Shown here piece after piece: positions 1 to 20,094 of a DNA stretch of 43,511 nt. This DNA comes from Gammaproteobacteria bacterium (GTDB lineage Bacteria; Pseudomonadota; Gammaproteobacteria; Pseudomonadales; Azotimanducaceae): assembly GCA_009843635.1 (NCBI GenBank), contig VYDB01000055.1, positions 1 to 43,511 on the forward strand, written 5' to 3'. Position numbers and translations under genes: made by a program. How positions within the stretch are numbered: position 1 is the first letter of the stretch; every line of letters begins with the position of its first letter. Below the pieces are notes generated by a model, which was given only the letters and a program-made list of their open reading frames with translations, ran no database searches and was not told the DNA's origin.

Positions 1-61
1 TCCGTTCCCGGAAGCAGACCGCATCAAGTTCCTGCCGGCCTCGATCGATTGGTGCCAGTAA
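1..61 (+). CDS. 3' end of an unidentified gene (partial)
   Basis: An open frame enters from the left edge and ends at the TAA at 59-61. Its last residues read PFPEADRIKFLPASIDWCQ. I do not recognise the family from so short a tail. It is kept as a gene end because the frame is uninterrupted, has coding-like third positions, and its stop codon is exactly the left target-site duplication of the MITE that follows. The same arrangement is seen at the verified end of petC at 19372. It could be a chance open frame. Confidence 0.5.
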   Translation, partial: PFPEADRIKFLPASIDWCQ

Positions 62-159
62 GGACTCTCGCCAAAATAAATTGTCCGTTTCATGTGACGG
101 AAGCCAGCATTTGCAAGGCATTGGGCGGGTTGTTGGATAGTTTAATTTGACGAGACTCC
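62..159 (+). mobile_element. 98-bp MITE-like element, copy 1, with 3-bp TAA target duplication
   Basis: The element begins GGACTCTCG and ends CGAGACTCC. The first 25 bases match the reverse complement of the last 25 at 20 positions, so it has imperfect terminal inverted repeats. TAA at 59-61 is repeated at 160-162 as a 3-bp target duplication. A second copy at 19274-19371 is identical over all 98 bases. There is no room for a transposase, so it must be mobilised in trans. A TNA duplication is the pattern known for the IS1031 group of the IS5 family; assignment to that group is inference. Confidence 0.85.
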
Positions 160-162
160 TAA

Positions 163-570
163 GGCTTGGCGTTGCCCATGGCGGCCAGCAAGGCGCCCGG
201 AACCGGGACGCAAAAAGCCCCCAAGGGAAGTTGAATCCCATGGGGCTTGCGGAGGCGGGCACTGTGCTGGTTGCCTGGCCGTCCTGCAGGGCTTCTCGCC
301 CGCTCCGCAATTGCTGCGGAGTTCGGTTCACGGTGTTGGCTGGCGCTGATATCCGTGGTTGCAGCCCGCCGAACATGCAGTGGCGGCCTGCTGATCTGCA
401 ATCTCGACCACCCCACCGCCGCCCGGCCGGGATCGATCTGACCCGTTCCCAAACGCAAATGCAGGGCGCCTCCTTCTGCGACTACCGCTATCGGCGCAGG
501 GCTTGAGCCACCGCACGGCCTGACGGCTGTGCCGGCAGGGGGGATGGCCTACAGCAACTGCGGAGATTGA
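163..570. other. Stretch without a recognisable gene
   Basis: No frame here resembles a known protein on either strand; the open frames are typical of random GC-rich sequence. I looked for RNase P RNA, which lies upstream of mraZ in some gammaproteobacteria, and did not find its conserved core. The only structured element I see is a hairpin with a T-run on the minus strand at 212-248. Confidence 0.5.
212..248 (-). terminator. Rho-independent terminator on the minus strand
   Basis: Read on the minus strand there is AAGCCCC, an inner GGGA/TCCC pair around a short loop, then GGGGCTT running into TTT. This is a strong stem followed by a T-run. No minus-strand gene ending here was recognised, so its client transcript is unknown. 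Confidence 0.5.
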
Positions 571-688
571 CCATGGCGCGGCGGGAACCGCGTGGCCCAT
601 GCCATCTCCGAATTCAGAGCGGGGAAGCGGCATGGCGGAATCAGTCAGCCACGACCAGAACTTCAAGAACCTCATCGTGAACTACCCC
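571..688 (+). repeat. Conserved leader plus Rpn 5' coding repeat, copy A
   Basis: This segment is similar, base for base and without gaps up to the start codon, to 42802-42919. Both have 61 bases ahead of the ATG and then encode nearly the same 19 residues (SHDQNFKNLIV is shared). Conservation of the upstream part suggests that the leader travels with this gene family. Confidence 0.65.
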
Positions 689-775
689 CGCGAGGCGCTC
701 TCCTTCTTCGCGCCCGATGAGGCGCCTCGGACTCCACAAGGGGGTTCGGCCCCAATGGGAACTGTTGCTGAGTGA
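632..775 (+). pseudogene. Rpn-type nuclease/transposase remnant, N-terminal piece
   Basis: The frame begins MAESVSHDQNFKNLIVNYP and continues REALSFFAPDEAP, which matches the start of Rpn (recombination-promoting nuclease, PD-(D/E)XK) proteins as I know them. After about 32 residues the similarity stops and the frame closes at 773-775, so only about a tenth of a normal roughly 300-residue protein remains. The nuclease core is absent. A second remnant at 42863 shares this N-terminus and upstream leader. It is probably a decayed member of a multicopy family. Confidence 0.6.
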
Positions 776-785
776 ATGCAGGGAA

Positions 786-823
786 TTGACCGCTTGCATC
801 ACATGTGTACGATTCTTACACAT
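786..823 (+). promoter_or_regulatory. Promoter and palindromic operator of the vapBC-type operon
   Basis: TTGACC (786-791) and TACGAT (808-813) form a -35/-10 pair with a 16-bp spacer. The -10 lies inside a perfect inverted repeat, ATGTGTA (803-809), 7-base gap, TACACAT (817-823). A palindrome over the -10 box just ahead of an antitoxin gene is the expected layout for autorepression by the toxin-antitoxin complex. Confidence 0.55.
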
Positions 824-843
824 CACCCCCGCAGAGTTGGCAC

Positions 844-1122
844 ATGGCAAGAGTTCAACGGGTGATCCCCGACGATGACCAAGCCCGCTTGCTTCGTCAG
901 GCGCGGTTGGAAGGCCCATCGTTCAGCGCTTGGCTACGCGCCGCCGCACGGGAGCGGCTCGAGCGCATGCGTCCCAATCGGCGATTCGGGGGGCAGGAAG
1001 ATCTGGCGGCCTTTTTTGCCGCATGCGACGCTGCGGAAGGCGCCGACGAGATGGAACCCGATTGGGAACAGCACAAGCAAGCCATTGTCCGGTCACGTCG
1101 GAAAGGACTGCCCGAAACATGA
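844..1122 (+). CDS. VapB-like antitoxin of a type II toxin-antitoxin pair
   Basis: The product is 92 residues. The N-terminal part (about 1-40: MARVQRVIPDDDQ, then SAWLRAAARERL) looks like a short ribbon-helix-helix DNA-binding region. The acidic C-terminal part would bind and block the toxin. An in-frame GTG at 805 would add 13 residues, but it lies inside the operator, so the ATG at 844 is preferred. The stop overlaps the toxin start (ATGA), implying translational coupling. By family knowledge it neutralises the partner RNase and, with it, represses the operon. The exact antitoxin family is uncertain; the antitoxin role rests mainly on position. Confidence 0.7.
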   Translation: MARVQRVIPDDDQARLLRQARLEGPSFSAWLRAAARERLERMRPNRRFGGQEDLAAFFAACDAAEGADEMEPDWEQHKQAIVRSRRKGLPET

Positions 1123-1502
1123 CTTTCGTGGACACCAATGTGTTCATGTACGCCGTGGGACGAACACATCCCCTCCGCGCCGAGGCACGCGGGTTCTTTG
1201 CCGGCGCCTTAGTAAGACGGGTGCCGTTGGCAACCTCAGCGGCGGTTCTGCAGGAACTCATTCACGCTTGCATCCCCGTGGGCAGGCAAGCCACTTTGGA
1301 GCGGGCGATGGCCTTGATGGACGGTCACGCCGTTACGGTCTGGCCACTTGGGCGAGAGGACGTGGTTCTAGCGGCACAGTTGCACGACCGTTTCCCCAAC
1401 CTCGGCGCTCGCGACCTATGCCACCTTGCGAGTTGCAGACGCGGGAACGCCTCGGCTGTCAAGACCTTCGACAAGGCGCTTGCGGCAGCACTGGGCGCAT
1501 AG
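1119..1502 (+). CDS. vapC: PIN-domain toxin ribonuclease, VapC family
   Basis: The product is 127 residues, normal for a VapC toxin. It starts MTFVDTNVFMYA, the standard first strand of a PIN domain. Four acidic residues are in expected places: Asp5, Glu46 (LQELIHA), Asp99 (GARDLCHLA) and Asp118. They would coordinate the metal ions that cleave RNA; VapC toxins usually cut tRNA or rRNA and stop growth. The ATG at 1119 overlaps the antitoxin stop. The frame is complete with no missing catalytic residue, so the toxin is probably functional. Its RNA target cannot be told from sequence. Confidence 0.85.
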   Translation: MTFVDTNVFMYAVGRTHPLRAEARGFFAGALVRRVPLATSAAVLQELIHACIPVGRQATLERAMALMDGHAVTVWPLGREDVVLAAQLHDRFPNLGARDLCHLASCRRGNASAVKTFDKALAAALGA

Positions 1503-1612
1503 CAAGTTCCATATCTTCCAGCTTGTCGAGCAAGGCTTCCTAGGCCGCGGCGGGAACAGGGTAAAAGACAGCCAAGGACAACTCGGAAACCGGCTCCCCC
1601 AGCCAGTCCGGC

Positions 1613-1849
1613 TCAGTCCAAAGCCATGCTCACGACTGCCGCGAGCGTGCCTAGGCTGATCGCCATCTGAATGCCCATCATCCATCGCATCGCCGACATT
1701 TCAGCCCGCAACGCCAGAACGTCCTCCCGCGTCGCTAGGTTACCTTGGCCTGCACGAATGGCCGTTGCCACGGCCTCGGCCTGGGGGCGGTCCATTCCGG
1801 CGCGCTCAAGTTCCCGGGCTGCGTTCAGCGAGTCAAAGGTGGAATCCAT
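1613..1849 (-). CDS. Small coiled-coil protein with C-terminal membrane helix (DUF1640-like)
   Basis: The product is 78 residues, beginning MDSTFDSLNAARELERAGMDRPQ. The middle part (about 35-55) is charged and coiled-coil-like (TREDVLALRAEM). The last 22 residues form one hydrophobic helix. This is the layout of DUF1640-like proteins, whose function is unknown to me. A distant paralog lies at 23118-23426 and shares the GMDR.QA.AV motif. The in-frame start further upstream (1921) was rejected because the sequence before MDSTF overlaps the mraZ promoter and lacks similarity to the paralog. The gene is transcribed divergently from mraZ. Confidence 0.6.
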   Translation of the reverse strand: MDSTFDSLNAARELERAGMDRPQAEAVATAIRAGQGNLATREDVLALRAEMSAMRWMMGIQMAISLGTLAAVVSMALD

Positions 1850-1912
1850 GTTGTCGAGGCTACCATACTTCTGTTTCAGCCACTCTCGTTTTGTGCGGTT
1901 CGAAAATCCGCC

Positions 1913-1941
1913 TTGACACAAATATAGGGGCGCGGTAGTGT
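1913..1941 (+). promoter_or_regulatory. Sigma-70 promoter of the dcw operon
   Basis: A perfect TTGACA (1913-1918) is followed after 17 bases by TAGTGT (1936-1941), a weak -10. Transcription would begin near 1948, at the first MraZ-type box, so a repressor on those boxes would block initiation or escape. Confidence 0.6.
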
Positions 1942-1947
1942 CGCCAG

Positions 1948-1992
1948 TTGGGGAAAAGTGCTATAAAGTGGGAGATAGTGGGAAAAAGGGGC
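1948..1992 (+). promoter_or_regulatory. MraZ-binding box array
   Basis: Pentamers recur every 10 bases: TTGGG (1948), GTGCT (1958), GTGGG (1968), GTGGG (1978), GGGGC (1988), two of them perfect. Known MraZ operators are GTGGG-like direct repeats with 5-base spacers upstream of mraZ. Position, period and sequence fit autoregulation by MraZ. Confidence 0.7.
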
Positions 1993-2008
1993 TAAAGCGA
2001 GGCTTCCT

Positions 2009-2482
2009 GTGTCGGCGACTGTCGGATTTCGCGGAATATCCAACGCCACGTTGGATGCCAAAGGACGCATGGCCCTGCCATCGCGTTACCGCGAGGTTGT
2101 GTCCGCCGTATCCCAAGGTCAGGTGGTGGTCACCATCGACCGGGCGGAGCCTTGCCTGCTGCTCTATCCGCGAACGGAATGGGATGCCGTGCAGGAGAAG
2201 CTTGAAGCCCTGCCCAACATCCGGCCCGGAGTGCGGCAACTTCAGCGTCTTCTGATCGGGCACGCCACCGACTTGGAACTTGATGGCAGCGGGCGGCTGT
2301 TGCTGCCGGTGCCGCTGCGCGAGCATGCCGGTCTTGACAAGAAGCTGACGCTGGCGGGCCAAGGCAACAAGATCGAGATCTGGGATGATGCCAGGTGGCG
2401 CGAAGGCATGGCCTTGTGGCGCTCCGAAGAGAACGGCGAACTGGCCGCGGAATTCGAAGGCATAACGGGGCTGTCAGTATGA
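2009..2482 (+). CDS. mraZ: Transcriptional regulator MraZ
   Basis: The product is 157 residues, close to the usual 150. It has the two SpoVT/AbrB-like half domains typical of MraZ, each with its signature: DAKGR in the first (about residue 18) and DGSGR in the second (about 92). Family members form a ring that binds repeats in front of mraZ and represses the division cluster. The start is a GTG at 2009, giving MSATVGFRGIS; the conserved FRGIS follows at once, so no later start is possible. It is the first gene of the dcw operon, and its stop overlaps the rsmH start (ATGA at 2479). Confidence 0.95.
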   Translation: MSATVGFRGISNATLDAKGRMALPSRYREVVSAVSQGQVVVTIDRAEPCLLLYPRTEWDAVQEKLEALPNIRPGVRQLQRLLIGHATDLELDGSGRLLLPVPLREHAGLDKKLTLAGQGNKIEIWDDARWREGMALWRSEENGELAAEFEGITGLSV

Positions 2483-3399
2483 ACGGCCGGCACGAGCCCG
2501 TGTTGCGCCGTGAGACCATCGACCACATTGCCGAGCCGGGGGCGGCGGGCAACTTCGTTGACGCCACCTTTGGCCGAGGAGGCCACAGTCGAGCCCTGCT
2601 TGGCCGCGTCGGCCCCGACGCCCGGTTGCTGGCGCTCGATCGGGACGCCGAGGCCTTTGCCTGCGCGGGGGCCTTGGCCGCCGAGGATGCCCGCGTCGTT
2701 GCCCGCCGGTCGGCCTTTGGCAGCGTCGCGGAGATCCTGCCCGCGGTGGGCATGAACGACGTGCAGGGCGCAGTGATGGACCTCGGCCTCTCCTCCGCGC
2801 AGCTTGATGATCCCGAACGCGGATTCAGCTTCCGCGCCGACGGCCCCCTGGACATGCGCATGGACCAGCGCGCCGCCGCCACGGCCGCCGACTGGCTGAA
2901 CGAAGCGCCGGTCGCGGAAATCGCCAGCGTCATTCGGCGCTACGGCGAGGAGCGCTTCGCCGGCCGCATCAGCCGCGCCATCATCGCTGCCCGTCCGCTT
3001 AAGACGACGGGCGAGCTCGCGGGCTTGGTCGCCGCCAACCAACCGCGCCGGGCGCCGGGCAAGCACCCTGCCACGCGGGTTTTTCAGGCCATCCGCATCT
3101 TCATCAACCAAGAGCTCGGCGAACTGCAATCGGGCCTGGAAGGCCTGTTCAACGCCTTGGGCGTAGGTGGCCGCTTGGCCGTGATCAGCTTTCATTCCTT
3201 GGAGGACCGGATCGTCAAACGCTTCTGCAAGGCCCGCAGTTCGCCGCCGCCGGTGCCAAGGCATGTGCCCATTCGCGCTGCCGAGGCGCGGGTCGAGGCG
3301 CGCATCGTCGCCGGCCCCGTGCGTCCAACAGCCGCCGAGGTGCGCCGCAACGGTCGCGCTCGAAGCGCAGTGCTGCGCGTGCTGGAGCGCATCGCGTGA
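2479..3399 (+). CDS. rsmH: 16S rRNA (cytosine-1402-N4) methyltransferase RsmH (MraW)
   Basis: The product is 306 residues, the normal length. It begins MNGRHEPVL and carries the SAM-binding motif DATFGRGGHSRALL near residue 30, the MDLGLSSAQLDDPERGFSF block near 96, and VISFHSLEDR in the C-terminal half, all diagnostic of RsmH. It methylates C1402 in the decoding centre of 16S rRNA. The ATG at 2479 overlaps the mraZ stop, and the gene's own stop overlaps the GTG of ftsL. This is its standard place, second in the dcw operon. Confidence 0.95.
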   Translation: MNGRHEPVLRRETIDHIAEPGAAGNFVDATFGRGGHSRALLGRVGPDARLLALDRDAEAFACAGALAAEDARVVARRSAFGSVAEILPAVGMNDVQGAVMDLGLSSAQLDDPERGFSFRADGPLDMRMDQRAAATAADWLNEAPVAEIASVIRRYGEERFAGRISRAIIAARPLKTTGELAGLVAANQPRRAPGKHPATRVFQAIRIFINQELGELQSGLEGLFNALGVGGRLAVISFHSLEDRIVKRFCKARSSPPPVPRHVPIRAAEARVEARIVAGPVRPTAAEVRRNGRARSAVLRVLERIA

Positions 3400-3662
3400 A
3401 GTGGGGCGCCGCCGCCGTCGCGGCCATCCTGCTGGCGGGCGTCGTCGCCTCCGGGGTGCAGGTGGTGGCGCGGACCCACGAAGTCCGGCTGCTTCACCAG
3501 GCCCTCGAGGCCTCCCGGCACCACCAGGATCGGCTGGCAGCCGAGCACAGCCGCCTGCTGCTCGAGCGGGGCGCCCGCTCCGCCTACTACAACGTTGAGC
3601 AGATGGCGCAGACCAAGTTGGGAATGCGCTTCCCGGACCGGGTCGAGCGGGTGCCCCGGTGA
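3396..3662 (+). CDS. ftsL: Cell division protein FtsL
   Basis: The product is 88 residues, a little shorter than typical FtsL. A short cytoplasmic start (MKW) is followed by one transmembrane helix (about 4-24), then a heptad-like periplasmic segment (HEVRLLHQALEAS onward) that would form the coiled coil with FtsB. Sequence similarity is weak, as usual for FtsL; the call rests on topology and on position between rsmH and ftsI. The start is a GTG at 3396 that overlaps the rsmH stop. The ftsI start overlaps its end. Confidence 0.85.
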   Translation: MKWGAAAVAAILLAGVVASGVQVVARTHEVRLLHQALEASRHHQDRLAAEHSRLLLERGARSAYYNVEQMAQTKLGMRFPDRVERVPR

Positions 3663-5338
3663 AGGTCTGGCGCCACCATGCCGTGCTCTGCCTGTTCATC
3701 GCGGGTTGCGCGGCGCTTGCCGCCCGAGTGGTTTACCTGGCGTTGCTGGACAAGGAATTCCTGCAGGATCAAGGGGACGCCCGTTCGGTGCGGGAAGTCG
3801 TCATCCCGTCCCGCCGGGGCGTCATCTACGATCGGCTCGACGAGCCGTTGGCCATCAGCACGCCGGTGGTGGCCGTCTGGAGCGACCCGAGCAAAAGGAA
3901 GCTGAGCCGTGCCGACATCAACCGCTTGGCTCCCCTGCTGGGGCGGGATGCGGAGCAGTTGGCGGACCATCTGGTCCGCCATGCAAACAAGGCTTTCGTC
4001 TATCTGAAGCGACGGCTTTCGTGGACCGCCGCAGAGCGTGTCCGCGCCTTGGGGATCGAGGGACTGCACTTCAGCGAAGAGTACCGGCGCTACTATCCCG
4101 GCGCGGAAACCGCCGCCCACGTGGTGGGCGTCACCAACATCGACGACCGCGGCCTGGAGGGCGTCGAGCTGGCTTTTGACGACCTGCTGAGCGGCGAGCA
4201 TGGGCGCAAGGTCGTGCTCAAGGACCGCCTCGGCGCGACCATCCGTGATCTGGAGTACATCGCCGTGCCACGCCTCGGCCAGGACGTCGCGCTCAGCATT
4301 GATCTGCGCCTGCAGTACTTCGCCTATCGGGAGCTCAAGGATGCGGTGGCGGGGCACCGGGCGGCCTCGGGATCCATCGTCATTCTCGACGCCCGCACCG
4401 GGGAGATTCTCGCCTTGGTGAACTCCCCATCATACAACCCCAATGAATCCCTTGAACTGGGGTTTGCCGGGATGCGCAACCGGGCGGTGACCGACAACTA
4501 CGAACCGGGCTCCACGATCAAGCCCTTTGCCGTGCTGGCGGCGCTGGAAACGGGCGAGTACCAGCCGGATACCGTGGTCAACACCGCACCGGGCTATTGG
4601 GCGGTGCGCCGCAAGCTGATTGAGGATCCCGTCAACTACGGGGAACTGACGTTGGCGGGCATCGTGCGCAAGTCGAGTCAGGTCGGCATTTCCAAGGTGG
4701 CCCTAGCGCTGCCCGAAAGGGCCGTGTTCGAGGTGCTGCAGCGGGCCGGGGTCGGCGACTTCGTCGGCAGCGGACTGCCTGGCGAGGCGATCGGCACCTT
4801 TGACGACTCGGGACTCCGCAGCGAGGTGGTGCGCGCCACCCTGGCCTACGGCTACGGTTTGAGCGTCTCGCCCTTGCAGCTTGCCCAAGCCTATCTGCCC
4901 ATCGCCAATGATGGCGTTCGCCTGCCTCTCAGCGTGGTTAAGCTCAGCCAGCCACCCCAAGGCGAACGAGTTTTCGCGGCGGCCATGACCCGGCAACTGC
5001 TGTCGATGATGGAAGGGGTCACGGAACGGACGGGCACGGCACCCGATGCCCAAGTGCCCGGCTATCGCGTGGCCGGCAAGACCGGGACCGCTCGTGTGGT
5101 CGTCAGCGATGGCTACACGGATCAGCGCCACGTGGCGTTGTTCGCCGGCGTGGTGCCGCTGACGGATCCGCAGATCGTCATGGTGGTGGTGATCAACCAG
5201 CCCAGCGGCCCCAAGATCAGCGGTGGCGCCGTCGCCGCACCCATTTTTGCCCGGGTCGCTGAGCGGGCGTTGCGCCTGCTTGGGGTCGCGCCCGATGCGC
5301 AGCATTTGATCGCCGCCGTCGAAGGGAGGAGGTCATGA
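3659..5338 (+). CDS. ftsI: Septal peptidoglycan transpeptidase FtsI (PBP3)
   Basis: The product is 559 residues (E. coli 588). An N-terminal membrane anchor (about 6-28) is followed by the PBP dimerisation region (IPSRRGVIYDR) and a transpeptidase domain. The catalytic STIK begins at Ser285 and the KTG box is at 474-476. It crosslinks peptidoglycan at the septum with FtsW as partner. Oddity: the second active-site motif, normally SxN, reads SSQ (339-341, in RKSSQVGISK), so the Asn is Gln. All else looks intact. The start is GTG at 3659, overlapping ftsL; GGAGG near the end of the gene serves murE, whose ATG overlaps the stop. Confidence 0.95.
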   Translation: MKVWRHHAVLCLFIAGCAALAARVVYLALLDKEFLQDQGDARSVREVVIPSRRGVIYDRLDEPLAISTPVVAVWSDPSKRKLSRADINRLAPLLGRDAEQLADHLVRHANKAFVYLKRRLSWTAAERVRALGIEGLHFSEEYRRYYPGAETAAHVVGVTNIDDRGLEGVELAFDDLLSGEHGRKVVLKDRLGATIRDLEYIAVPRLGQDVALSIDLRLQYFAYRELKDAVAGHRAASGSIVILDARTGEILALVNSPSYNPNESLELGFAGMRNRAVTDNYEPGSTIKPFAVLAALETGEYQPDTVVNTAPGYWAVRRKLIEDPVNYGELTLAGIVRKSSQVGISKVALALPERAVFEVLQRAGVGDFVGSGLPGEAIGTFDDSGLRSEVVRATLAYGYGLSVSPLQLAQAYLPIANDGVRLPLSVVKLSQPPQGERVFAAAMTRQLLSMMEGVTERTGTAPDAQVPGYRVAGKTGTARVVVSDGYTDQRHVALFAGVVPLTDPQIVMVVVINQPSGPKISGGAVAAPIFARVAERALRLLGVAPDAQHLIAAVEGRRS

Positions 5339-6795
5339 CGCGGTCGAGCTTGCGCGAGCTTATCCATGGGCCGGACACGCCCGACTTGGAAATCGCCGGG
5401 CTGTCCGAAGACTCCAGGCTGATCCAGCCGGGCGAAGCCTTCATCGCCACTCGGGGCGCGACCCTCGATGGCCACGACTACGCGGCAGAGGCTGTTGGCC
5501 GGGGCGCGGCCTGCGTGCTTGCGGAACGGCCGCTGCCGGGCCTCGGCGCACCAGTGGTTCAGGTTGAGAACCTGCGGGCGCGGCGCGGGGCGCTAGCTGA
5601 TAAGTTCTACGCCGCGCCCAGCCGCGCGCTGACTTGCGTCGGCGTCACCGGCACCAATGGCAAGACGACCATCGCCCACCAGGTGGCCAGCCTCGCCAAT
5701 GCAGTGGGCCTCGACGCCGCCTACATGGGCACCATTGGTTGGGGACGGCCAAGCCGGTTGGCGCCTTCGCGCCTGACCACGGAAAGCGCCATCCTCACCC
5801 ACAAGCGTCTGGCTTGCCTTCGTGGGCGGGGCTGCTCCTGGGCGGCGGTGGAAGTGAGTTCCCATGCCTTGGCCCAAGGGCGTGCCGATACGATCGCCTT
5901 CGACTACGCGGTCTTTTCCAATCTCACGCGGGACCATCTGGACTACCACGCCGACTTTGACGCCTATGGGGCGGCCAAACGACGGTTGTTCGAATTCCCT
6001 TCGCTGCGCTGCGCGATCATCAACATTGACGACGAGTTCGGCCACAAGCTGGCCCGCGAGCTCGTCCGCAGCTTGGCGCAGGTGGACGTTCTGACCTATG
6101 GTCAAGGGCAGGCGGACATCTCCTGGGAGGACATCGAGCATCGAGCGGACGGATTGCGGGCTCGGCTGCGCACGCCATGGGGCAGCGCCTTCGTCTCGGC
6201 GCCAGTGTGCGGTGACTTCGGCTTGGCCAATCTGGCCGCTGCCATCGGCGTGTTGGCCGCCGCCGAACAGCCGTTGGAGGCGGTCTGCGAGGCAGCGAGC
6301 GCCTTGCCCCCGGTGCCGGGACGCATGGAGTTCTTCCGCGTTGCCGGGTATCCCACCGTGGTGGTCGACTACGCCCATACGCCAGACGCGCTCGCCAAGG
6401 CGCTTGCCGCGGTCCGGCGCCATGCCGAGGGTGCCTTGCTGTGCGTGGTCGGCTGCGGCGGCGACCGGGACGCCGGCAAGCGGCCGATTATGGGGCGCAT
6501 CGCCGCATCCTTGGCCGACCGGGTGTGGCTGACCAGCGACAACCCACGCTCTGAAGATCCGATGGCCATCATGCGCGACATGGCGGCGGGGATCGAGGAT
6601 GCGTCGCCGGTGACCTTGGAAGCTGATCGCGGTGCGGCCATCGCGCAGGCCATCGCCGGTGCCGATGCTCACGATTTGGTCATCGTTGCTGGCAAGGGCC
6701 ACGAGGAAACGCAGGAGATCGATGGGCGTCGGCATCCGTTCAGCGACCGGGAGGCCGTGCGGCAAGCCATGGGCCTGCCGGGAGGGGGCGCCTGA
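5335..6795 (+). CDS. murE: UDP-MurNAc-L-Ala-D-Glu:meso-diaminopimelate ligase MurE
   Basis: The product is 486 residues, a normal length. The ATP-binding loop [10 protein letters not shown] is at about 103-112, and DNPRSEDP near 402 is the motif that selects meso-diaminopimelate rather than lysine, so the wall is of the Gram-negative type. KGHEETQE lies near the end. The enzyme adds the third residue to the peptidoglycan stem peptide in the cytoplasm. Its ATG lies inside the ftsI stop region, and its TGA shares a base with the mraY ATG. murF normally follows but is absent here. Confidence 0.96.
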
Positions 6796-7877
6796 TGCTG
6801 CTCTGGCTCACCGACTATCTGGCCCAATTCATCAGCGGCTTCACGGTCTTTCAGTACTTGACCTTCCGCACCATGGTCAGCGTGGTGACGGCGCTTTCGT
6901 TGTCGCTGCTGATAGGCCCTTGGGTGATCGACCGCCTCAACCGTCACCAGATTGGCCAACCAGTGCGCGGCGACGGTCCGGAAAGCCATTTCAGCAAGGC
7001 TGGCACCCCGACCATGGGCGGGGCGTTGATCCTGATCGTCATTTTCTTCACCACCTTGATGTGGGGCGAGCTTGGCAACCGCTATGTGTGGACGGTGCTG
7101 CTGGTCACCTTGGCCTTTGGCGGCATTGGTTGGGTGGACGACTACCTCAAGATTCGGCGCCAGAGCTCCGACGGCTTGGCGGCCCGGACCAAGTACGCTT
7201 GGCAGTCGCTGTTCGGGCTGGCGGCGGCGCTGTTTCTCTACTTGAGCGCGGAGCTGCCGGTGGAAACGGACTTGATCGTGCCCTTCTTCAAAGAGGTCGC
7301 CATTCCCTTGGGGGTGGGTTACGTGTTGGTGGCCTACCTCGTCATCGTCGGCATGAGCAACGCCGTCAACCTGACCGATGGCCTGGACGGGCTGGCGATT
7401 CTGCCCACCGTGATGGTCGGGGCGGCCTTGGGACTGATCGCGTACTTGGCTGGCCACGTGGAGTTCGCCAGCTACTTGCAGATTCCCCACATCCCCCAAG
7501 CCGGTGAACTGGCGGTGTTCTGCGGCGCGTTGATTGGCGCTGGCCTGGGCTTCCTGTGGTTCAACGCCTACCCCGCCGACGTGATCATGGGCGATGTGGG
7601 CGCCTTGGCTTTGGGGGCGGCCTTGGCGGTGGTGGCCATCATCATCCGCCATGAGATCGTGCTGCTTGTCATGGGCGGCTTGTTCGTCATCGAGACTGCG
7701 TCGGTCATCATCCAGGTGGCCTCCTATCGCCTCACCGGACGGCGCATCTTCCGCATGGCGCCCATTCACCATCACTTCGAACTCAAGGGTTGGCCGGAGC
7801 CTCGTGTGATCGTGCGCTTTTGGATCTTGACGCTGGTGCTGGTGCTGGTCGGCCTTTCCACGTTGAAGCTGAGGTAG
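6795..7877 (+). CDS. mraY: Phospho-MurNAc-pentapeptide transferase MraY
   Basis: The product is 360 residues, the usual length, with about ten hydrophobic helices. Family signatures are present: the Asp pair in WVDDYLK (115-116), [10 protein letters not shown] in the middle, and [11 protein letters not shown] near residue 322. It moves phospho-MurNAc-pentapeptide from UDP to undecaprenyl phosphate in the inner membrane, making lipid I. The ATG is coupled to the murE stop (TGATG). In E. coli murF sits between murE and mraY; here the two genes touch directly. Confidence 0.97.
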
Positions 7878-7931
7878 GCGTGACGCAGCGGGGCCATTCC
7901 AAATCAGAGCTGAGGTGGACGTGACACAGCG
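7867..7931 (+). repeat. Imperfect direct repeat across the mraY-murD junction
   Basis: AGCTGAGGT followed by a GTGAC.CAGCG block occurs at 7867-7890 and again at 7908-7931, 41 bases apart, with 21 of 24 bases alike. The first copy contains the end of mraY, the second the ribosome-binding region and GTG start of murD. It looks like a small tandem duplication that opened a gap between genes that otherwise overlap in this operon. Confidence 0.7.
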
Positions 7932-12440: not shown

Positions 12441-12456
12441 GGATGAGGGCAGCAAG

Positions 12457-13689
12457 ATGACAGCGGACAGCGGCGCGGCACAGAGGATCGTCGGGCTGGA
12501 CATCGGCACCAGCAAGGTGGCCGCCATCGTCGGCGAAGTGACGGCGGACAACGAGCTCGAAATCAAGGGCATCGGCACCCAGGCCTCCCGGGGGCTGCGC
12601 AAGGGCGTGGTGGTGAACATCGAGTCCACCGTGCATTCCATTCAGCGGGCCGTCGAGGAGGCGGAGCTGATGGCGGGCTGCAACATCGAGTCGGTGTACG
12701 CGGGCATCGCCGGCAGCCACGTCAAAAGCACCAATTCCCACGGCGTCGTCGCGGTGCCGGACCGGGAAGTGCTCGCCCACGACGTGGAGCGCGTCATCGA
12801 TGCCGCCGAGGCAATGGCCATCCCGACCGACCAGAAGATGCTTCATGTCCTGCCCCAAGAGTACATCATCGACCATCAGGATGGCGTGAGGGACCCCTTG
12901 GGCATGTCTGGGGTGCGCCTTGAAGCCAAGGTGCACTTGGTCAGTTGCGCCGCCAACGCGCTGCAGAACATCGAGAAGTGCATTGAGCGGTGTGGCTTGA
13001 AGGTCAACGGCATCATCCTGGAGCAATTGGCGTCGAGCTATTCGGTGCTCTCGGACGATGAACGCCAGCTTGGCGTCTGCCTCGTGGACATCGGCGGCGG
13101 CACCTCGGACATCGCCGTCTTCACCGGCGGCGCCATTCGCCACACAGCCGTCATCCCCATCGCCGGCGACCAGGTGACCAACGACATCGCCATGGCCCTG
13201 CGCACCCCCACACCCAATGCCGAGGAAATCAAGATCCGCTACGGACGCGCACTATCGCAGCTCGCGCGGGCCGATCAAATGATCGAGGTGCCCGGCGCCG
13301 GCGACCGGCCGCCTCGCGAACTCTCGCAACAAACCTTGGCCGAGGTGGTGGAGCCGCGCTACGACGAACTGTTCAGCCTCATCCAGGCGGAGTTGCGCCG
13401 CAGCGGCTTCGAGGAGCTGATCGCCGCCGGCGTGGTCCTCACGGGCGGCGCCGCCAAGATGAAGGGCGCGATCGAACTCGCCGAGGAGATCTTCCACATG
13501 CCGGTCAGCCTCGGGTCGCCGAAGGCGGTCTCTGGGCTCAAGGACATCGTGCGCAATCCGATTCACGCCACCGGCGTCGGCCTGATGCTGTACGGCAAGG
13601 AGCAACGCCGCGACGCCGGCGGTGCCAGCCAGGACGGGAACGGCGGTCGAATGAGTCGGCTGCGGAAGTGGCTTGCGGACAATCTTTAG
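12457..13689 (+). CDS. ftsA: Cell division protein FtsA
   Basis: The product is 410 residues, normal for this actin-like ATPase. GLDIGTSKVAAIVGEV starts the first phosphate-binding region, DIGGGTSDIAVF the second, and VVLTGGAAKMKG the adenosine motif. The last dozen residues (MSRLRKWLADNL) form the amphipathic helix that tethers FtsA and hence FtsZ to the membrane. The ATG at 12457 follows GGATGAGGG at good distance; an ATG at 12412 inside ftsQ was rejected. The stop codon lies inside a 17-bp tandem duplication. Confidence 0.96.
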   Translation: MTADSGAAQRIVGLDIGTSKVAAIVGEVTADNELEIKGIGTQASRGLRKGVVVNIESTVHSIQRAVEEAELMAGCNIESVYAGIAGSHVKSTNSHGVVAVPDREVLAHDVERVIDAAEAMAIPTDQKMLHVLPQEYIIDHQDGVRDPLGMSGVRLEAKVHLVSCAANALQNIEKCIERCGLKVNGIILEQLASSYSVLSDDERQLGVCLVDIGGGTSDIAVFTGGAIRHTAVIPIAGDQVTNDIAMALRTPTPNAEEIKIRYGRALSQLARADQMIEVPGAGDRPPRELSQQTLAEVVEPRYDELFSLIQAELRRSGFEELIAAGVVLTGGAAKMKGAIELAEEIFHMPVSLGSPKAVSGLKDIVRNPIHATGVGLMLYGKEQRRDAGGASQDGNGGRMSRLRKWLADNL

Positions 13690-13717
13690 CCGTAGAAAGC
13701 CTTTAGCCGTAGAAAGC
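13684..13717 (+). repeat. 17-bp perfect tandem duplication over the ftsA stop codon
   Basis: The unit CTTTAGCCGTAGAAAGC occurs at 13684-13700 and at once again at 13701-13717. The first copy contains the ftsA stop (TAG, 13687-13689). The repeat starts the roughly 140-bp ftsA-ftsZ gap, the largest gap in this otherwise overlapping operon. Confidence 0.9.
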
Positions 13718-13830
13718 GCAATCAACTGGGACCAATGCCATGCGAAGCAGTAACCATGCCAATCATCCAACAAACCGAACTCGACTTCTTGGAAGTCGCC
13801 AACCAACCATCTGCAACGGGAGACAAGCCC

Positions 13831-14973
13831 ATGTTTACAATTGAGGAAATCGAACCGCAAAACGCCGCCATCAAGGTCATCGGCGTGGGCGGCGGCGGCG
13901 GCAACGCCGTTCAGCACATGGTGAGCAACAGCCTGCCCGGCGTGGAGTTCGTTGCCATGAACACCGACGTGCAGGCGCTCAGGGCGCTGAACGTGCCAAT
14001 GAAGCTGGCCATCGGCACTTCGGTGACCAAGGGGCTCGGTGCGGGGGCCAACCCGGAGACCGGGCGCCAGGCGGCCTTGGAGGAGACGGCGCGCATCAGC
14101 GAACTGCTTGAGGGTTCCAACATGGTGTTCATCGCTGCCGGCATGGGCGGCGGCACCGGCACGGGTGCTGCGCCAGTGGTGGCGAAACTGGCTCGGGAGA
14201 AGAACATTCTGACCGTGGCCGTGGTCACCCGGCCCTTCGCCCATGAACGGCGCGATGCCCAAGCCGATGCGGGCCTCGACCAACTCGCCGAGTACGTCGA
14301 TTCCCTGATCACGATCTCCAACGACAAGCTGAAGGATGCCGACCCGAGCTTCACGCTCATGAACGCCTTTGCGGCCGCCAATGACGTGCTGCTTGGCGCG
14401 GTCGAGGGCATTTCGGACCTGATCGTGAGCCACGGCGTCATGAACGTTGACTTTGCCGACGTGCAGACGGTCATGGGAATCAATGGCACGGCCATGATGG
14501 GCACTGGCCGGGCGTCCGGGGAGAGCCGGGCGCGCCGCGCTGCGGAGGCGGCCATTGATTGCCCGTTGCTGGACGACATCGACATGCGCGACGCTCGGGG
14601 CGTGTTGCTGAACGTCACGGCCGGCCCGTCCTTCGTGCTCGATGAGTACTATGAAATCAATGGCATGATCAACGAGATCGCTTCGGACAAGGCCACTTTC
14701 ATCGGCGGTCTGGTGATTGACGAATCGATGGAGGAAGAGGTCAAGGTCACCATCGTGGCCACTGGCTTGGCGGATCAGGTGCGGGGCAAGGCGGCGGGGC
14801 CGCGCGCCGTTGCGATTGACGTTGGCAGTGACTACAGCGAGTACGATCGGCCGCCTTTACGGCGAGGCATTCATGACGAGCGGCATAGGAAGCCCGACCG
14901 GGATGCGGTGGCGGCGGACACGGACCCGGAGTTCCTCGACCTGCCGACCTTCCTGCGCCGTCAAGCCGACTAG
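13831..14973 (+). CDS. ftsZ: Cell division GTPase FtsZ
   Basis: The product is 380 residues from the chosen ATG (MFTIEEIEPQN). IKVIGVGGGGGNAVQHM opens the GTPase domain, GMGGGTGTGAAP is the tubulin signature loop, and the C-terminal peptide LDLPTFLRRQAD is the docking site for FtsA and ZipA. It assembles the Z-ring. The ATG at 13831 has GGGAG eight bases upstream and aligns with the usual FtsZ start; an in-frame ATG at 13735 would add 32 unconserved residues. It closes the dcw operon. lpxC, often next in gammaproteobacteria, is not present here. Confidence 0.97.
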   Translation: MFTIEEIEPQNAAIKVIGVGGGGGNAVQHMVSNSLPGVEFVAMNTDVQALRALNVPMKLAIGTSVTKGLGAGANPETGRQAALEETARISELLEGSNMVFIAAGMGGGTGTGAAPVVAKLAREKNILTVAVVTRPFAHERRDAQADAGLDQLAEYVDSLITISNDKLKDADPSFTLMNAFAAANDVLLGAVEGISDLIVSHGVMNVDFADVQTVMGINGTAMMGTGRASGESRARRAAEAAIDCPLLDDIDMRDARGVLLNVTAGPSFVLDEYYEINGMINEIASDKATFIGGLVIDESMEEEVKVTIVATGLADQVRGKAAGPRAVAIDVGSDYSEYDRPPLRRGIHDERHRKPDRDAVAADTDPEFLDLPTFLRRQAD

Positions 14974-14989
14974 GGTGGGTCCGTAGCTC

Positions 14990-15004
14990 CTGCCCTAGGG
15001 GCAG
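14990..15004 (+). terminator. Possible weak terminator hairpin after ftsZ
   Basis: CTGCCC (14990-14995) and GGGCAG (14999-15004) form a perfect 6-bp stem with a 3-base loop, 16 bases after the ftsZ stop. The following TCGATTGTTTCG is only moderately T-rich, so termination may be partial. Confidence 0.4.
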
Positions 15005-15049
15005 TCGATTGTTTCGCTGGCTTGGCCGACCGCCTGCGGGTTCGACATC

Positions 15050-17899
15050 TTGACGCCCGGCGAGTTCATCGCCAAGTGGCGGGCATCGGAGTTGAAGGAG
15101 CGCTCGGCTGCGCAGTCGCACTTCATTGATCTGTGCCGGCTGCTTGGCGAACCGACACCGACGGACGCCGACCCGGCGGGCGAGTGGTACTGCTTCGAAC
15201 GCGGCGCGCGTAAGGACACCGGCGGCGACGGCTGGGCCGACGTGTGGAAGCGCGGCTGCTTCGCTTGGGAGTACAAGGGCCGCCGCGCAGACCTGGACGC
15301 GGCGTTCAACCAGTTGCGGCAGTACGCGCTCGCGCTGGAGAACCCGCCGCTGCTGATCGTCTCCGACATGGCGCGGTTCCGCATCCGCACCAACTGGACC
15401 AACAGCGTTAGCGTGACGCGCGAACTCACGCTCGACGACCTCGCCGACGGCGCGAACCGCGACCTGCTCAAGTGGGCGATGTCGGAGCCGGAGCGGCTGC
15501 GGCCGGGAGAGACGCGGCAGGCGGTGACGGAGCGGGCGGCGGCGACCTTCGCGGAGCTTGCCCAAGGCTTGCGCGACCAAGGCCAAGACCCGCAGGCGGT
15601 GGCGCACTTCGTCAACCGAATGGTGTTCTGCATGTTCGCGGAGGACGTGGGCCTGCTGCCGGGCAACATGTTCACCCGCATGCTGGAACGCACGCGGCAC
15701 GATCCCGATGGATTCGCTGACTACGCCTCGCGGCTGTTCGGCGCCATGGCCACGGGCGGCGACGTGGGGTTCGAGCCGGTGCCTTGGTTCAACGGCGGGC
15801 TCTTTGACGACGATGCCGCCCTGCCGCTCGATCGGGAGGGGGTCGAGACGGCGCTCAGGGCGGCGGCGCTGGATTGGTCGGAGATCGACCCGTCAATCCT
15901 CGGCACGCTGTTCGAGCGCGGTCTCGACCCGCGCAAGCGTTCGCAGCTGGGAGCGCACTACACCGACCGGGACAAGATCATGCGCATCGTCGAGCCGGTG
16001 ATCGTCCGCCCCCTGCTTGCGGAGTGGGAGACGGCGAAGGCCGGAATCGCGGCCACGGTGGAGCGCGCCGACGCGGAGGGCTCATCGGCGGCTCGGACCA
16101 GGCTGCGGCGGCGGGCGGACCGGGCGCTGCGGACCTTCCTCGAACGGCTGCGCCGGTTCGCCGTGCTCGACCCGGCCTGCGGCTCGGGGAACTTCCTCTA
16201 TCTGGCGCTTCATGCGCTCAAGGACTTGGAGCACCGGGTTCAGCTTGAGGCGGAGGCGCTCGGCCTCGAGCGCGGGTTCCCGGCGGTCGGCCCAGCCAAC
16301 GTGAAGGGCATCGAGATCAACGCCTACGCCGCCGAGCTTGCCCGTGTGACGGTGTGGATCGGCGAACTCCAATGGATGCGGCGCAACGGGTTCAGCCACT
16401 CGACCAATCCGATACTGGATCCGCTCGACACCATCGAATGCCGTGACGCGATCCTTGCGCCGGACGGCAGCGAGCCGGACTGGCCGGATGCCGATGTTGT
16501 GATCGGCAACCCGCCATTCTTAGGGGATCGGGTCATGCGGGGTGGTCTGGGCCACGAATACACGGAGCGCCTGCGTCGGACCTATAGGGGTTCCGTCCCC
16601 GGTTCCGCCGATCTGGTCTGCTATTGGTTCGCAAAGGCAGGTGCTCTGGTGGCCGGAGGAGCAATCGCCCGCGCTGGCTTGGTAGCCACGAACTCCATCC
16701 GGGGCGGCAACAACCGGCCTGTCCTCGACCAGATTGTCGCCAACTGCTCCATATTCGATGCGTGGTCGGACGAACCGTGGGTGATCGACGGGGCGGCAGT
16801 CCGAGTCTCGCTGGTCTGCTTCGGCGGGAGCGACAAGGGCCTTTCCATCCGACTGAACGGCAGGGCAACTGCCCGTATTCATGCTGACCTTACGGGCGGT
16901 AGCATCGACCTCACGCAAGCGGCAAGTCTGCCAACAAATCGTTCGATAGCCTTCCTTGGCGTCAACAAGAATGGCGCGTTCGACATTCCGGGCAATGTTG
17001 CGCGGGAATGGCTGCGGCTTCCCGCCAATCCAAACGGGCGACCGAACGCCGATGTCCTGAAACCTCGAATTGTGGGTAAGGACTTGGTTCAGCGATCATC
17101 GGATCAATGGATCATCGACTTCGGTGCCACGATGACCGAAGCGGATTGCGCGCTCTACGAGGAGCCGTTCGCGCATGTCGCAAAGCACGTAAGGCCGGTT
17201 CGAGCGACCAATCGGGTCAAGCCATTGAGGGAGAATTGGTGGCGGCACATGCGGCCTCGACCGGCCATGTGGCGAGCCCTTGAAGGCATGGCCCGCTGCA
17301 TCGTGACCCCCACCCTCGCAAAGCACCGCTTGTTCGCTTGGCTCGACACGAACGTCTGTCCGGACCATCAGTTGATCGTCATCGCCCGCGACGACGACGT
17401 GACCTTCGGAATCCTGCACAGCCGGTTCCACGAGGCGTGGTCACTACGGCTCGGAACATGGCTCGGCAAGGGCAACGATCCGCGCTACACGCCGACCACC
17501 ACCTTCGAAACCTTTCCCTTCCCCGAGGGTCTCTCGCCGGACGTTCCCGCCGCCGACTATGCCGAAGATCTGCGCGCCATCGCCATTGCCGAGCCCGCGC
17601 GGCGGCTGGTTGAGCTCCGCGACCGCTGGCTCAACCCACCCGAATGGGTGGAGTGGGTGGATGAGCCTGTGCCGGGCTATCCGAAGCGTCCGGTGGCCCG
17701 AGACGAGGTGGCGGCCAAGGAACTCAAGGTGCGCACGCTGACCAACCTCTACAACGCCCGTCCGCAATGGCTGGCGGACGCGCACACGAGGCTCGATGCC
17801 GCCGTTGCGGCTGCCTACGGGTGGGAAGCGGGGATTCTTGAAGACGAAGCCCTGCGGCGCCTGTTGGCGCTGAACTCGGCAGGCGGAAGTAGAAAATGA
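15050..17899 (+). CDS. MmeI-like Type IIL restriction-modification enzyme
   Basis: The product is 949 residues, the length of MmeI-type enzymes that combine endonuclease, N6-adenine methyltransferase and target recognition in one chain. The N-terminal nuclease has Asp64, then nine residues, then Glu74-Tyr-Lys76, the PD-(D/E)XK pattern of MmeI. A helical linker follows. The SAM motif DPACGSGNFLY is near 374 and the catalytic NPPF near 486, followed by the target-recognition region (about 620-830). All motifs look intact, so it should both cut and methylate. The start is TTG at 15050 (MTPGEFIAKWR); no better start is in frame. It sits just after ftsZ and overlaps the next gene. Confidence 0.9.
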   Translation: MTPGEFIAKWRASELKERSAAQSHFIDLCRLLGEPTPTDADPAGEWYCFERGARKDTGGDGWADVWKRGCFAWEYKGRRADLDAAFNQLRQYALALENPPLLIVSDMARFRIRTNWTNSVSVTRELTLDDLADGANRDLLKWAMSEPERLRPGETRQAVTERAAATFAELAQGLRDQGQDPQAVAHFVNRMVFCMFAEDVGLLPGNMFTRMLERTRHDPDGFADYASRLFGAMATGGDVGFEPVPWFNGGLFDDDAALPLDREGVETALRAAALDWSEIDPSILGTLFERGLDPRKRSQLGAHYTDRDKIMRIVEPVIVRPLLAEWETAKAGIAATVERADAEGSSAARTRLRRRADRALRTFLERLRRFAVLDPACGSGNFLYLALHALKDLEHRVQLEAEALGLERGFPAVGPANVKGIEINAYAAELARVTVWIGELQWMRRNGFSHSTNPILDPLDTIECRDAILAPDGSEPDWPDADVVIGNPPFLGDRVMRGGLGHEYTERLRRTYRGSVPGSADLVCYWFAKAGALVAGGAIARAGLVATNSIRGGNNRPVLDQIVANCSIFDAWSDEPWVIDGAAVRVSLVCFGGSDKGLSIRLNGRATARIHADLTGGSIDLTQAASLPTNRSIAFLGVNKNGAFDIPGNVAREWLRLPANPNGRPNADVLKPRIVGKDLVQRSSDQWIIDFGATMTEADCALYEEPFAHVAKHVRPVRATNRVKPLRENWWRHMRPRPAMWRALEGMARCIVTPTLAKHRLFAWLDTNVCPDHQLIVIARDDDVTFGILHSRFHEAWSLRLGTWLGKGNDPRYTPTTTFETFPFPEGLSPDVPAADYAEDLRAIAIAEPARRLVELRDRWLNPPEWVEWVDEPVPGYPKRPVARDEVAAKELKVRTLTNLYNARPQWLADAHTRLDAAVAAAYGWEAGILEDEALRRLLALNSAGGSRK

Positions 17900-18171
17900 A
17901 CGCCCTTCCCGAAGGCGTCGCGGCCTACGCCCGCACGGCTACGTTCTCGGCTCGGACGATACCCGAGAACCTTCGCCGGTCCCATCGGACCAAAGCCGGG
18001 ACTTGGGCGAAGATCGTCGTTCTTGAGGGAAAGCTGCGCTATCGCGTACTGGAGCCGGAAATCCGCGAGTTTGAGTTATCGCCCGATTGCCCCGGCGTGG
18101 TCGAGCCGAAGGTGCGGCACGAGGTCGAAGCCGTGGGCGATGTGCGGTTCTACGTGGAGTTCCATCGCTGA
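17896..18171 (+). CDS. Small cupin-like protein, DUF1971 family
   Basis: The product is 91 residues and reads as a single small beta-barrel domain: MNALPEGVAAYARTATF, KAGTWAKIVVLEGKLRYRV, PGVVEPKVRHEVE and RFYVEFHR. This matches DUF1971 domains, which also occur in some tellurite-resistance and YeaR-like proteins. The biochemical role is not established. The ATG at 17896 overlaps the stop of the restriction enzyme, so the two are co-translated, but such genes also occur alone and I do not claim a restriction function. Confidence 0.75.
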   Translation: MNALPEGVAAYARTATFSARTIPENLRRSHRTKAGTWAKIVVLEGKLRYRVLEPEIREFELSPDCPGVVEPKVRHEVEAVGDVRFYVEFHR

Positions 18172-18230
18172 CAACGCCGGGCTGGCCAACTCTCGCTCAG
18201 GGCATTTGGATGCGTTGGGTGTGCCGAGGT

Positions 18231-18602
18231 TCAGGTGACCAGCTTCAGCGCCGGGCTGCGGCTGGCCTTGGGGGCTTCATCGGGCGCCGGCGCATCCTCG
18301 TTGAACATCATGCCTTCGCCGGTTTCCTTGGCATAGATGGCCATCACGCTTGATGTAGGTGCTGATACCCGAAAGGCTTGGCCTGCGAACCGTCCGTCGA
18401 AGGACAGGGTGTCGTTGGCGATCGTGAGGCTGCGCACAGCCGTGGGAGAGACATTGAGCACAATGCGCCCGTCGGCGACGTATTCCCTAGGCACGACCAC
18501 CGCTTCCGAGGCGGCATCTATCAGCAAGTGGGGGGTCAGGCCGCTGTCCACCATCCAATCGTAGAGCGCCCGCAACAGGTAGGGCTGCTTGTTGATGGCT
18601 AT
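18231..18602 (-). CDS. sspB: ClpXP adaptor SspB, with apparent AUA start
   Basis: The frame encodes QPYLLRALYDWMVDSGLTPH and IVLNVSPTAV, then SVMAIYAKETGEGMMF, clear SspB blocks, and a variable tail ending PALKLVT that docks to ClpX. SspB delivers ssrA-tagged proteins to ClpXP. No ATG, GTG, TTG or CTG lies in frame between the first conserved residues and a TTG at 18734 deep inside sspA. An ATA at 18602 has GGAG eight bases upstream, overlaps the sspA stop as ATAG, and gives about 123 residues with the normal N-terminal length. I therefore place the start there. A one-base error or use of AUC at 18596 are alternatives. Confidence 0.85.
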   Translation of the reverse strand: MAINKQPYLLRALYDWMVDSGLTPHLLIDAASEAVVVPREYVADGRIVLNVSPTAVRSLTIANDTLSFDGRFAGQAFRVSAPTSSVMAIYAKETGEGMMFNEDAPAPDEAPKASRSPALKLVT

Positions 18603-19231
18603 TCGCCCATCTCCTGTTCGGCCTCGCTGAGGCTTTTTTGGAACGAGTCGCGCTCGAAGATCTGTTGCATGTAGTTTCTCAAGGGCCGGGAGCGGCGGTC
18701 GCGCAGCACGATGCCGGCGGCGTTCAGACGCCAAAGGATTGGCGCGACGCAGCAGTCCACCAAGGTGAACTCCTCGTTCATGAAAAAGGGTTTCTGGCTG
18801 AAGATGGGTGCCGTGTCGGACAGGCTGGCGCGCAGGTCGGCTTTGGCCTGCTGCCTAAAGACCTCTGAGCCTTGGCCCGCGATCAGCGGATCCAGCCTGC
18901 TGCTCCATTCCTTGTCGATGCGGTGGACCCACAGCCGTGCCATTGACCGTTCCACCGGGTACACCGGCAGCAGCGGTGGATGGGGGAAGCGCTCGTCAAG
19001 GTACTGCATGATGATGTTGGCGTTATAGAGCACCAAATCCCGGTCGGTGAGGGTGGGCACCGTGTTGTAGGGGTTTTGGCTCGCCAGCTCCGCCGGCGGG
19101 TTTTCCGCATCGACGTCCACCAAGTCCACGATAACGCCTTTCTCCGCCAGCATCATCCGCACCCGGTGGGAATACTGGTCCCGGGGGTCCGAATAGAGCA
19201 GCATCGACGATTGGCGGTCCCCCAGGTTCAT
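18599..19231 (-). CDS. sspA: Stringent starvation protein A
   Basis: The product is 210 residues, normal for SspA. It has a glutathione S-transferase fold: a thioredoxin-like N-terminal part (MLLYSDPRDQYSHRVRMMLAEKG, of which only SDPRDQYSHRVR is the core) and a helical C-terminal part. SspA binds RNA polymerase and helps in stationary phase and stress. The ATG at 19231 has AGAGG seven bases upstream, and its nine extra residues match the length of the E. coli N-terminus before MTLFSGP. The stop overlaps the apparent sspB start. A MITE separates it from petC upstream. Confidence 0.93.
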   Translation of the reverse strand: MNLGDRQSSMLLYSDPRDQYSHRVRMMLAEKGVIVDLVDVDAENPPAELASQNPYNTVPTLTDRDLVLYNANIIMQYLDERFPHPPLLPVYPVERSMARLWVHRIDKEWSSRLDPLIAGQGSEVFRQQAKADLRASLSDTAPIFSQKPFFMNEEFTLVDCCVAPILWRLNAAGIVLRDRRSRPLRNYMQQIFERDSFQKSLSEAEQEMGE

Positions 19232-19273
19232 CGGCTGGCCTCTTGGGTGACGGGACGGTTGACGGTTACCTTA

Positions 19274-19371
19274 GGACTCTCGCCAAAATAAATTGTCCGT
19301 TTCATGTGACGGAAGCCAGCATTTGCAAGGCATTGGGCGGGTTGTTGGATAGTTTAATTTGACGAGACTCC
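19274..19371 (+). mobile_element. 98-bp MITE-like element, copy 2, with 3-bp TTA target duplication
   Basis: This copy is identical in all 98 bases to the one at 62-159. TTA at 19271-19273 is repeated at 19372-19374. On the minus strand the right-hand TTA is the TAA stop of petC, so insertion happened in the stop codon and the duplication restored it. The element now sits between petC and sspA in an otherwise compact operon. Confidence 0.88.
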
Positions 19372-20094
19372 TTAGTGGACATCCTTCCAAAATTCCCGAT
19401 TGAGCAGGTAGGTGAAGATGCCAAGGAAGGCCAGAAAGCCCAGTACGTAGATGCCGAGACGCTCGCGGTCACGGCGCGACGGCTCGCCGACGTAGTGCAG
19501 GAAGTTCACGAGGTCGAAGACAGCCTGATCGTACTGTTCGGCGGTCAGCAGGCCGCTGCCCGAATCGATGGCCAGTTGGTTGCAGTCCTCCACGCCGGGT
19601 GGACAGGCATCCCGCTGGACACCCTGCAGGTCGATCAGCGCATGGGGCATGCCGACGTTCTCGAACACCTTGTTATTGACCCCGAAGGGCCTCGACTCGT
19701 CCAGGTAGAAGGTCTTGAGATAGTTGTATGTCCACTCCGGGCTGCGCACTCGGGAGACCATGGTGAGGTCCGGAGGCGGTGCGCCAAACCAAGCCTTGGC
19801 GCTTTCCGGGTCCATGGCGGTGGTCATCAGTTCGCCGATCTTCTGGCCGGTGAAGATGAGTTCGTCCGCAGCCACGTCGTGGGGAATGCCGAGATCGTCG
19901 GCAGTTCGCTCGTAGCGTTGAAACTGCAGTGAGTGGCAGCCCAAGCAGTAGTTGGCGTACAGCTTGAAGCCCCGTTGCAGCGACGGTTGGTCCTCCAAGT
20001 TGGGCTGCATTGGCTCCATCGGCCAATCGCTCGCGGCTGCCCAGGCCCCGGCGGCGGGGCAGGCGATCAATGCCAGCAGCAGAAACACCCTCAT
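19372..20094 (-). CDS. petC: Cytochrome c1 of the bc1 complex
   Basis: The product is 240 residues. A cleavable signal peptide (about 1-20) precedes the heme site Cys50-Leu-Gly-Cys53-His54 in NYCLGCHS. The Met ligand region follows in the second half, and a membrane anchor lies near the C-terminus (LGIYVLGFLAFLGIFTYLL). It passes electrons from the Rieske centre to soluble cytochrome c at the periplasmic face. The ATG at 20094 overlaps the petB stop (ATGA). The TAA stop is the target duplication of a MITE. Confidence 0.95.
   Translation of the reverse strand: MRVFLLLALIACPAAGAWAAASDWPMEPMQPNLEDQPSLQRGFKLYANYCLGCHSLQFQRYERTADDLGIPHDVAADELIFTGQKIGELMTTAMDPESAKAWFGAPPPDLTMVSRVRSPEWTYNYLKTFYLDESRPFGVNNKVFENVGMPHALIDLQGVQRDACPPGVEDCNQLAIDSGSGLLTAEQYDQAVFDLVNFLHYVGEPSRRDRERLGIYVLGFLAFLGIFTYLLNREFWKDVH

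Follow-up and report, generated by a model that had tools for sequence, protein, structure and literature searches.

Two identical elements at gene ends

The window analysed here, a 43,511-nt stretch of DNA (contig VYDB01000055.1 of the Gammaproteobacteria bacterium assembly GCA_009843635.1, family Azotimanducaceae), contains two copies of a miniature inverted-repeat transposable element (MITE), identical over 98 bp and ending in imperfect inverted repeats that match at 20 of 25 positions (Table 1). Each copy lies between the halves of a 3-bp duplication, TAA on both sides of copy 1 and TTA on both sides of copy 2. One half of each duplication is a stop codon: the first TAA ends a partial gene at the start of the window, and the second TTA is the minus-strand TAA of petC, which encodes cytochrome c1 (PF02167). 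The element has opposite orientations relative to the two genes. In all these respects, including the insertion of a MITE into two stop codons that it rebuilt, the original prediction was correct. Chance similarity is ruled out by the contigs of the source genome, which hold four identical full copies and one with a single mismatch, and the element has every mark of a MITE, being short and devoid of a coding gene, with terminal inverted repeats, a target duplication and several copies.

Both insertions can be compared with uninterrupted sites. Contig C140 (L201) of the same genome, paralogous to the start of the window, has a frame of 253 codons running into a single TAA at the position corresponding to the first stop codon, lacks the MITE, and over the 346 bp downstream of the stop has 97.4% identity to the window; for copy 1 it provides the empty site directly. 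A petC match was found in seven of eight relatives of the same genus, and all seven orthologs end at the same codon after the residues WKDVH (TAG in five, TAA in one and TGA in one), with no element at the petC end in any of them.

Two further gene ends like that at positions 2..61 occur in the source genome, and at the corresponding stop position contig C145 reads TGA (read by eye from the bases). Window bases 1-55 are also present at the end of C145, which probably reflects overlapping assembly within a repeated family of genes that has at least three members (C87, C140 and C145). The gene downstream of petC, which has a glutathione-S-transferase fold, is presumably sspA-like, judging by its position.

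Table 1. Coordinates of the two MITE copies and adjoining genes in the window
Feature	Position	Strand	Basis
MITE copy 1, 98 bp	62..159	+	sequence; 5 full genome copies; end comparison
Copy 1 inverted repeats	left 62-86, right 135-159	+	end comparison
TAA target copy, stop codon of upstream gene	59..61	+	sequence; paralog C140 ends at corresponding TAA
Second TAA of target duplication	160..162	+	sequence
MITE copy 2, 98 bp, identical to copy 1	19274..19371	+	sequence; genome copies
Copy 2 inverted repeats	19274-19298 and 19347-19371	+	end comparison
TTA (minus-strand TAA), second copy of target duplication	19271..19273	-	sequence
TTA (minus-strand TAA), petC stop codon	19372..19374	-	sequence; 7 orthologs
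petC, cytochrome c1, start approximate	19372..20094	-	gene call; PF02167 E 1.2e-17; 7 orthologs
Glutathione-S-transferase-fold gene, downstream of petC	18599..19231	-	gene call; GST_N_3 E 8.5e-14
Gene 3' end, 19 codons and stop	2..61	+	paralog frame of 253 codons on C140; no Pfam match for paralog

Relationship to ISAzo13-family insertion sequences

The left 34 bp of the MITE agree at 30 of 34 positions with the 3' end of a longer element on contig C120 of the same genome, and its right 25 bp agree at 22 of 25 positions with the 5' end of an element in G002, a genome of the same genus, the best match over 25 bases among those compared; both of these elements run off the ends of their contigs. 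In G002, the start of an ISAzo13-like transposase gene comes after this 5' end, a 3' end adjoins a gene match to PF07592, and the bases beside the C120 element end resemble those of that 3' end. A Vicinamibacterales genome has complete elements, about 1.3 kb long, whose termini are similar to those of the MITE, and a 409-aa transposase carried there matches NF033519 (ISAzo13 family) with an E value of 6e-178 and PF07592 with 1e-143. The MITE shares its termini with these autonomous elements, and its target and duplication with the ISAzo13 family; judged by sequence, it appears to belong to that family (PF07592) and not to IS5. As a kind of element it is already known, a MITE of a known insertion-sequence family.

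An IS5-family origin had been suggested by the original prediction, and a 3-bp TNA duplication is indeed made by the IS1031 group of that family. It is the same kind of termini, however, that flank the PF07592/NF033519 transposases, and an IS1031-like origin was set aside on this account, IS5 transposases and their ends not having been searched separately; its likelihood is very low.

The terminus pattern was found in 20 stretches of the genome contigs, about half of which were judged from their flanks to be chance matches, and in none of the viral contigs. Its 15-base core has matches in 5 of 398 genomes of the phylum (the source genome and four others); within the family, 4 of 206 genomes match, the source genome included, and one of them (G928) looks like a chance match. 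Nearly the same ISAzo13 termini (L073, L075, L079, L088 and L092) were seen in metagenome-assembled genomes of Rhodobacteraceae, Vicinamibacterales, Bryobacterales and Gammaproteobacteria, which suggests transfer between distant bacteria. In a Vicinamibacterales genome, one ISAzo13 element lies within the transposase gene of another copy (L078, 5499-7324). On Streptomyces plasmids (L104, L105, L130, L131 and L135), the ISAzo13 transposase genes are annotated as encoding 542-594 aa, and the elements of this group were resolved at about 1.7-1.8 kb, compared with about 1.3 kb in most others.

Other copies and the target sequence

Besides the five full copies, the source-genome contigs contain a 94-bp sibling MITE (C133:24939-25032; L017 1501-1594), with like termini and a different middle, and the end of the longer element, represented by 52 bases at the end of contig C120 (L006 1498-1552). 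TAA or TTA stands beside all seven elements, and the two sides match in all six that are complete. Contig C120 ends 55 bases past the start of the duplication, which, together with the 55 bases shared by the window and C145, fits an assembly overlap of 55; thus the longer ISAzo13 element is probably multi-copy and collapsed in the source-genome assembly. Single matches to a 14-mer of the terminus (for example, at C95:38625) were not counted, having no partner end or no T-N-A flank.

Four of the seven insertions are at stop codons: the petC TAA, the paralog-confirmed TAA of copy 1, the TAA of a called gene of 64 codons without a Pfam match, where the sibling on C133 lies, and a TAG that overlaps a TTA target, is rebuilt because the first base of the element is G, and terminates a frame of 499 or more codons (score 237, again with no Pfam match). 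The other three are inside genes, one within an acyl-CoA dehydrogenase gene, one at the third codon of an aldehyde dehydrogenase gene (L002 1501-1598), where a TAG now closely follows the presumed start codon, and the third, the longer element of C120, within a short, weakly called frame that we take to encode a B12-binding domain. The genome-wide search proposed in the original prediction thus upheld the 3-bp duplications, which flank all five full copies, and only in part the location at stops: two of the three full copies outside the window are off stops, inside genes, and the third is the one that overlaps TAG. Since three of seven insertions interrupt genes, the target must be a sequence and not a gene end, and strict stop-codon targeting, with nearly all insertions at stops, is ruled out.

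The copies might alternatively have been kept because their hairpin serves as a terminator or as an mRNA 3'-end structure for the gene whose stop they occupy. The RNA does fold into one long hairpin (z -2.9), but any element with inverted ends of 25 bp should fold in this way, no T run follows either copy in the window (by eye, no terminator scan having been made), and copies also occur within genes, all of which makes this function highly improbable.

The target was derived from 40 resolved sites, 34 of ISAzo13 elements from distant bacteria and six of the MITE and its sibling in the source genome. Read on one strand, the duplication is TAA (TAA/TTA) at 38 of the 40 sites and TGA at two; the preceding base is C at 29 and G at 10, the following base is G at 27, and the commonest five-mer across the target is CTAAG (18 of 40), with no further strong consensus seen by eye within 10 bases of the target. 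The T-N-A form was partly built into the choice of sites; the predominance of TAA/TTA over TGA/TCA and the outer bases were not, and the usable sites picked without a T-N-A filter also show TAA or TTA. With the filter, under which only end pairs with a matching T-N-A duplication were kept, 40 loci were tried, of which 24 were used and 16 dropped (L159, L160, L162, L166, L170, L174, L177, L179, L180, L184, L186-L190 and L193; L166 was replaced by L078, the same place). With a bonus for T-N-A, five of six loci were used (L108 was dropped), and without either, 18 loci were tried, with no usable pair from L037, L045, L048, L051, L066 and L065, and with L046 taken from its wider stretch. Among the pairs kept, the ends of L175, L176 and L107 are weak (11-12 of 20). 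The two-sided sites L044, L047, L049, L050 and L109 entered the target consensus and were left out of the stop count.

Origin of the excess at stop codons, and known systems

The 98-bp element is quite probably a non-autonomous internal-deletion MITE of an ISAzo13-family insertion sequence, moved by the DDE transposase of that family into TWA targets (W = A or T), with selection producing the excess at stop codons. It would have arisen by internal deletion of an ISAzo13-family element and be mobilised in trans by a transposase that would cut at TWA, mostly in CTAAG-like sites, duplicating those 3 bp. Such a target holds TAA on one strand and, if G follows, TAG on the other, and the element begins with GG, so that the protein would be unchanged by insertion into a stop codon, whichever strand it is on. 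Random insertion at TWA followed by loss of harmful insertions could then leave many of the survivors in stop codons.

As a null for the source genome, 443 kb were sampled (20 stretches and the window), one stretch, C120, itself holding a copy of the MITE; gene calls came from a purpose-made hexamer-based caller, trained on little sequence for some groups. Among the 530 S-TWA-S sites in this sample (S = C or G), 33 are at stops, 110 are intergenic and 387 are coding, so that stops account for 6.2% of all such sites and 23% of the non-coding ones (4.9% and 18.9% for plain TWA; 2.1% and 18.8% for T-N-A). The S-TWA-S motif was chosen after the sites had been seen, as were the tests after the pattern. 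Against this null, four of seven insertions at stops have P 0.00045, and two of five, when the two discovery copies are left out, P 0.034; for non-coding insertions only, the figures are four of four (P 0.003) and two of two (0.053). Random choice among TWA sites alone does not give four of seven at stops. Most of the pattern can be explained if choice is random and insertions that break genes are then lost, because stops make up 23% of the non-coding sites and insertion there leaves the protein unchanged, while an insertion between genes may fall in a promoter.

Several observations weigh against this account. No PF07592 match was found in the searched contigs of the source genome, C120 ending 52 bases into such an element, so that a working partner there can only be inferred. 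No insertion among the seven is intergenic, yet the sample has 110 intergenic S-TWA-S sites and 33 at stops. In relatives whose termini are nearly the same, two more insertions are clearly at stops, one at the end of a Uma2 gene in G002 and one at that of an NhaA gene (TGA) in G970. When the source genome, G002 and G970 are combined, six of nine non-coding insertions are at stops, compared with 23% in the null (P 0.007), or four of seven without the two discovery copies (P 0.054); tests of this type apply the null of the source genome to G002 and G970, the misses counted (L039, L212 and L216) are one-sided ends, and one stop case (L214) has a TGA target, outside that null. The one-sided ends L039, L212, L216 and L217 read TTA or TCA, and two of them, L039 and L217, may represent the opposite sides of the G002 and G970 stop insertions. 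Counting all insertions in the three genomes, six are at stops; the total is 11 when contig ends are matched up through their duplications and 13 when they are counted separately.

These figures bear on the view that the transposase of this ISAzo13 subgroup truly prefers gene ends (e.g., through DNA structure or termination-linked features), stops being its real targets. The stop frequency in the source genome, the lack of intergenic insertions and the six of 11 in the three genomes (P 2e-5, own-genome null) all favour such a preference; the three insertions inside genes, the lack of a strong consensus beyond roughly CTAAG, and the drop to two of five once the discovery copies are removed count against it. 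So does the wider set. The 29 sites from other genomes and plasmids comprise 15 coding, 11 intergenic and three at stops, compared with 1.2 expected at stops from all TWA sites (binomial P 0.12) or 1.6 among the 14 non-coding sites; of the three stop cases, L172 and L173 depend on weakly called genes of 57 and 28 codons, and L181 is a TGA. In the Vicinamibacterales genome, none of four insertions is at a stop. Of the elements with nearly the same termini, the one-sided L079 and L088 are not within called genes (L088 is just past a called stop), and L073 overlaps a weak gene call. A true preference for gene ends is on balance unlikely. Equally doubtful is its more specific form, in which the ISAzo13 subgroup and its MITEs in this bacterial family would prefer stop codons through a CTAAG-like target with a central TAA and a GG end that rebuilds TAA or TAG according to strand.

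The original prediction had left the choice between selection and real preference undecided. A TWA target filtered by selection is favoured as accounting for most of the stop pattern; the excess within the host family is nominally significant and leans on the discovery copies, and a mild real bias is possible. The MITE would then be for the most part a mobile element of the ordinary sort, leaning mildly, if at all, to gene ends.

What these comparisons provide is a tie between a MITE and the ISAzo13 family, a target rule for that family (CTAAG-like, with TWA duplicated) drawn from 40 sites in distant bacteria, and a simple route to gene-neutral insertion, in which the target can be a stop on either strand and the element end restores it. 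If a real stop bias were true, it would amount to safe-site targeting by sequence alone, with a transposon using the gene-safe trinucleotide of the genome. In the literature, no ISAzo13 MITE or stop-codon-targeting element was found by title or abstract opening, most subscription papers being outside the coverage.

Compared with the ISAzo13 insertion sequences (PF07592, NF033519), the element has termini that closely resemble those of members in its own genome and genus, together with the TWA duplication and CTAAG-like targets; it differs in being a 98-bp MITE without a transposase and with diverged ends. The difference from the IS1031 group of IS5 lies in the transposase family, seen on the ISAzo13 side in profile matches. 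The ISAzo13 transposase scores 50.6 bits against the IS630 model, under the cut-off of 100. The IS630-linked RUP of pneumococcus, as described in a review (PMC2229807), is likewise a short non-autonomous element whose ends match those of a partner insertion sequence, and its targets contain TA, whereas the target here is TWA with a 3-bp duplication.

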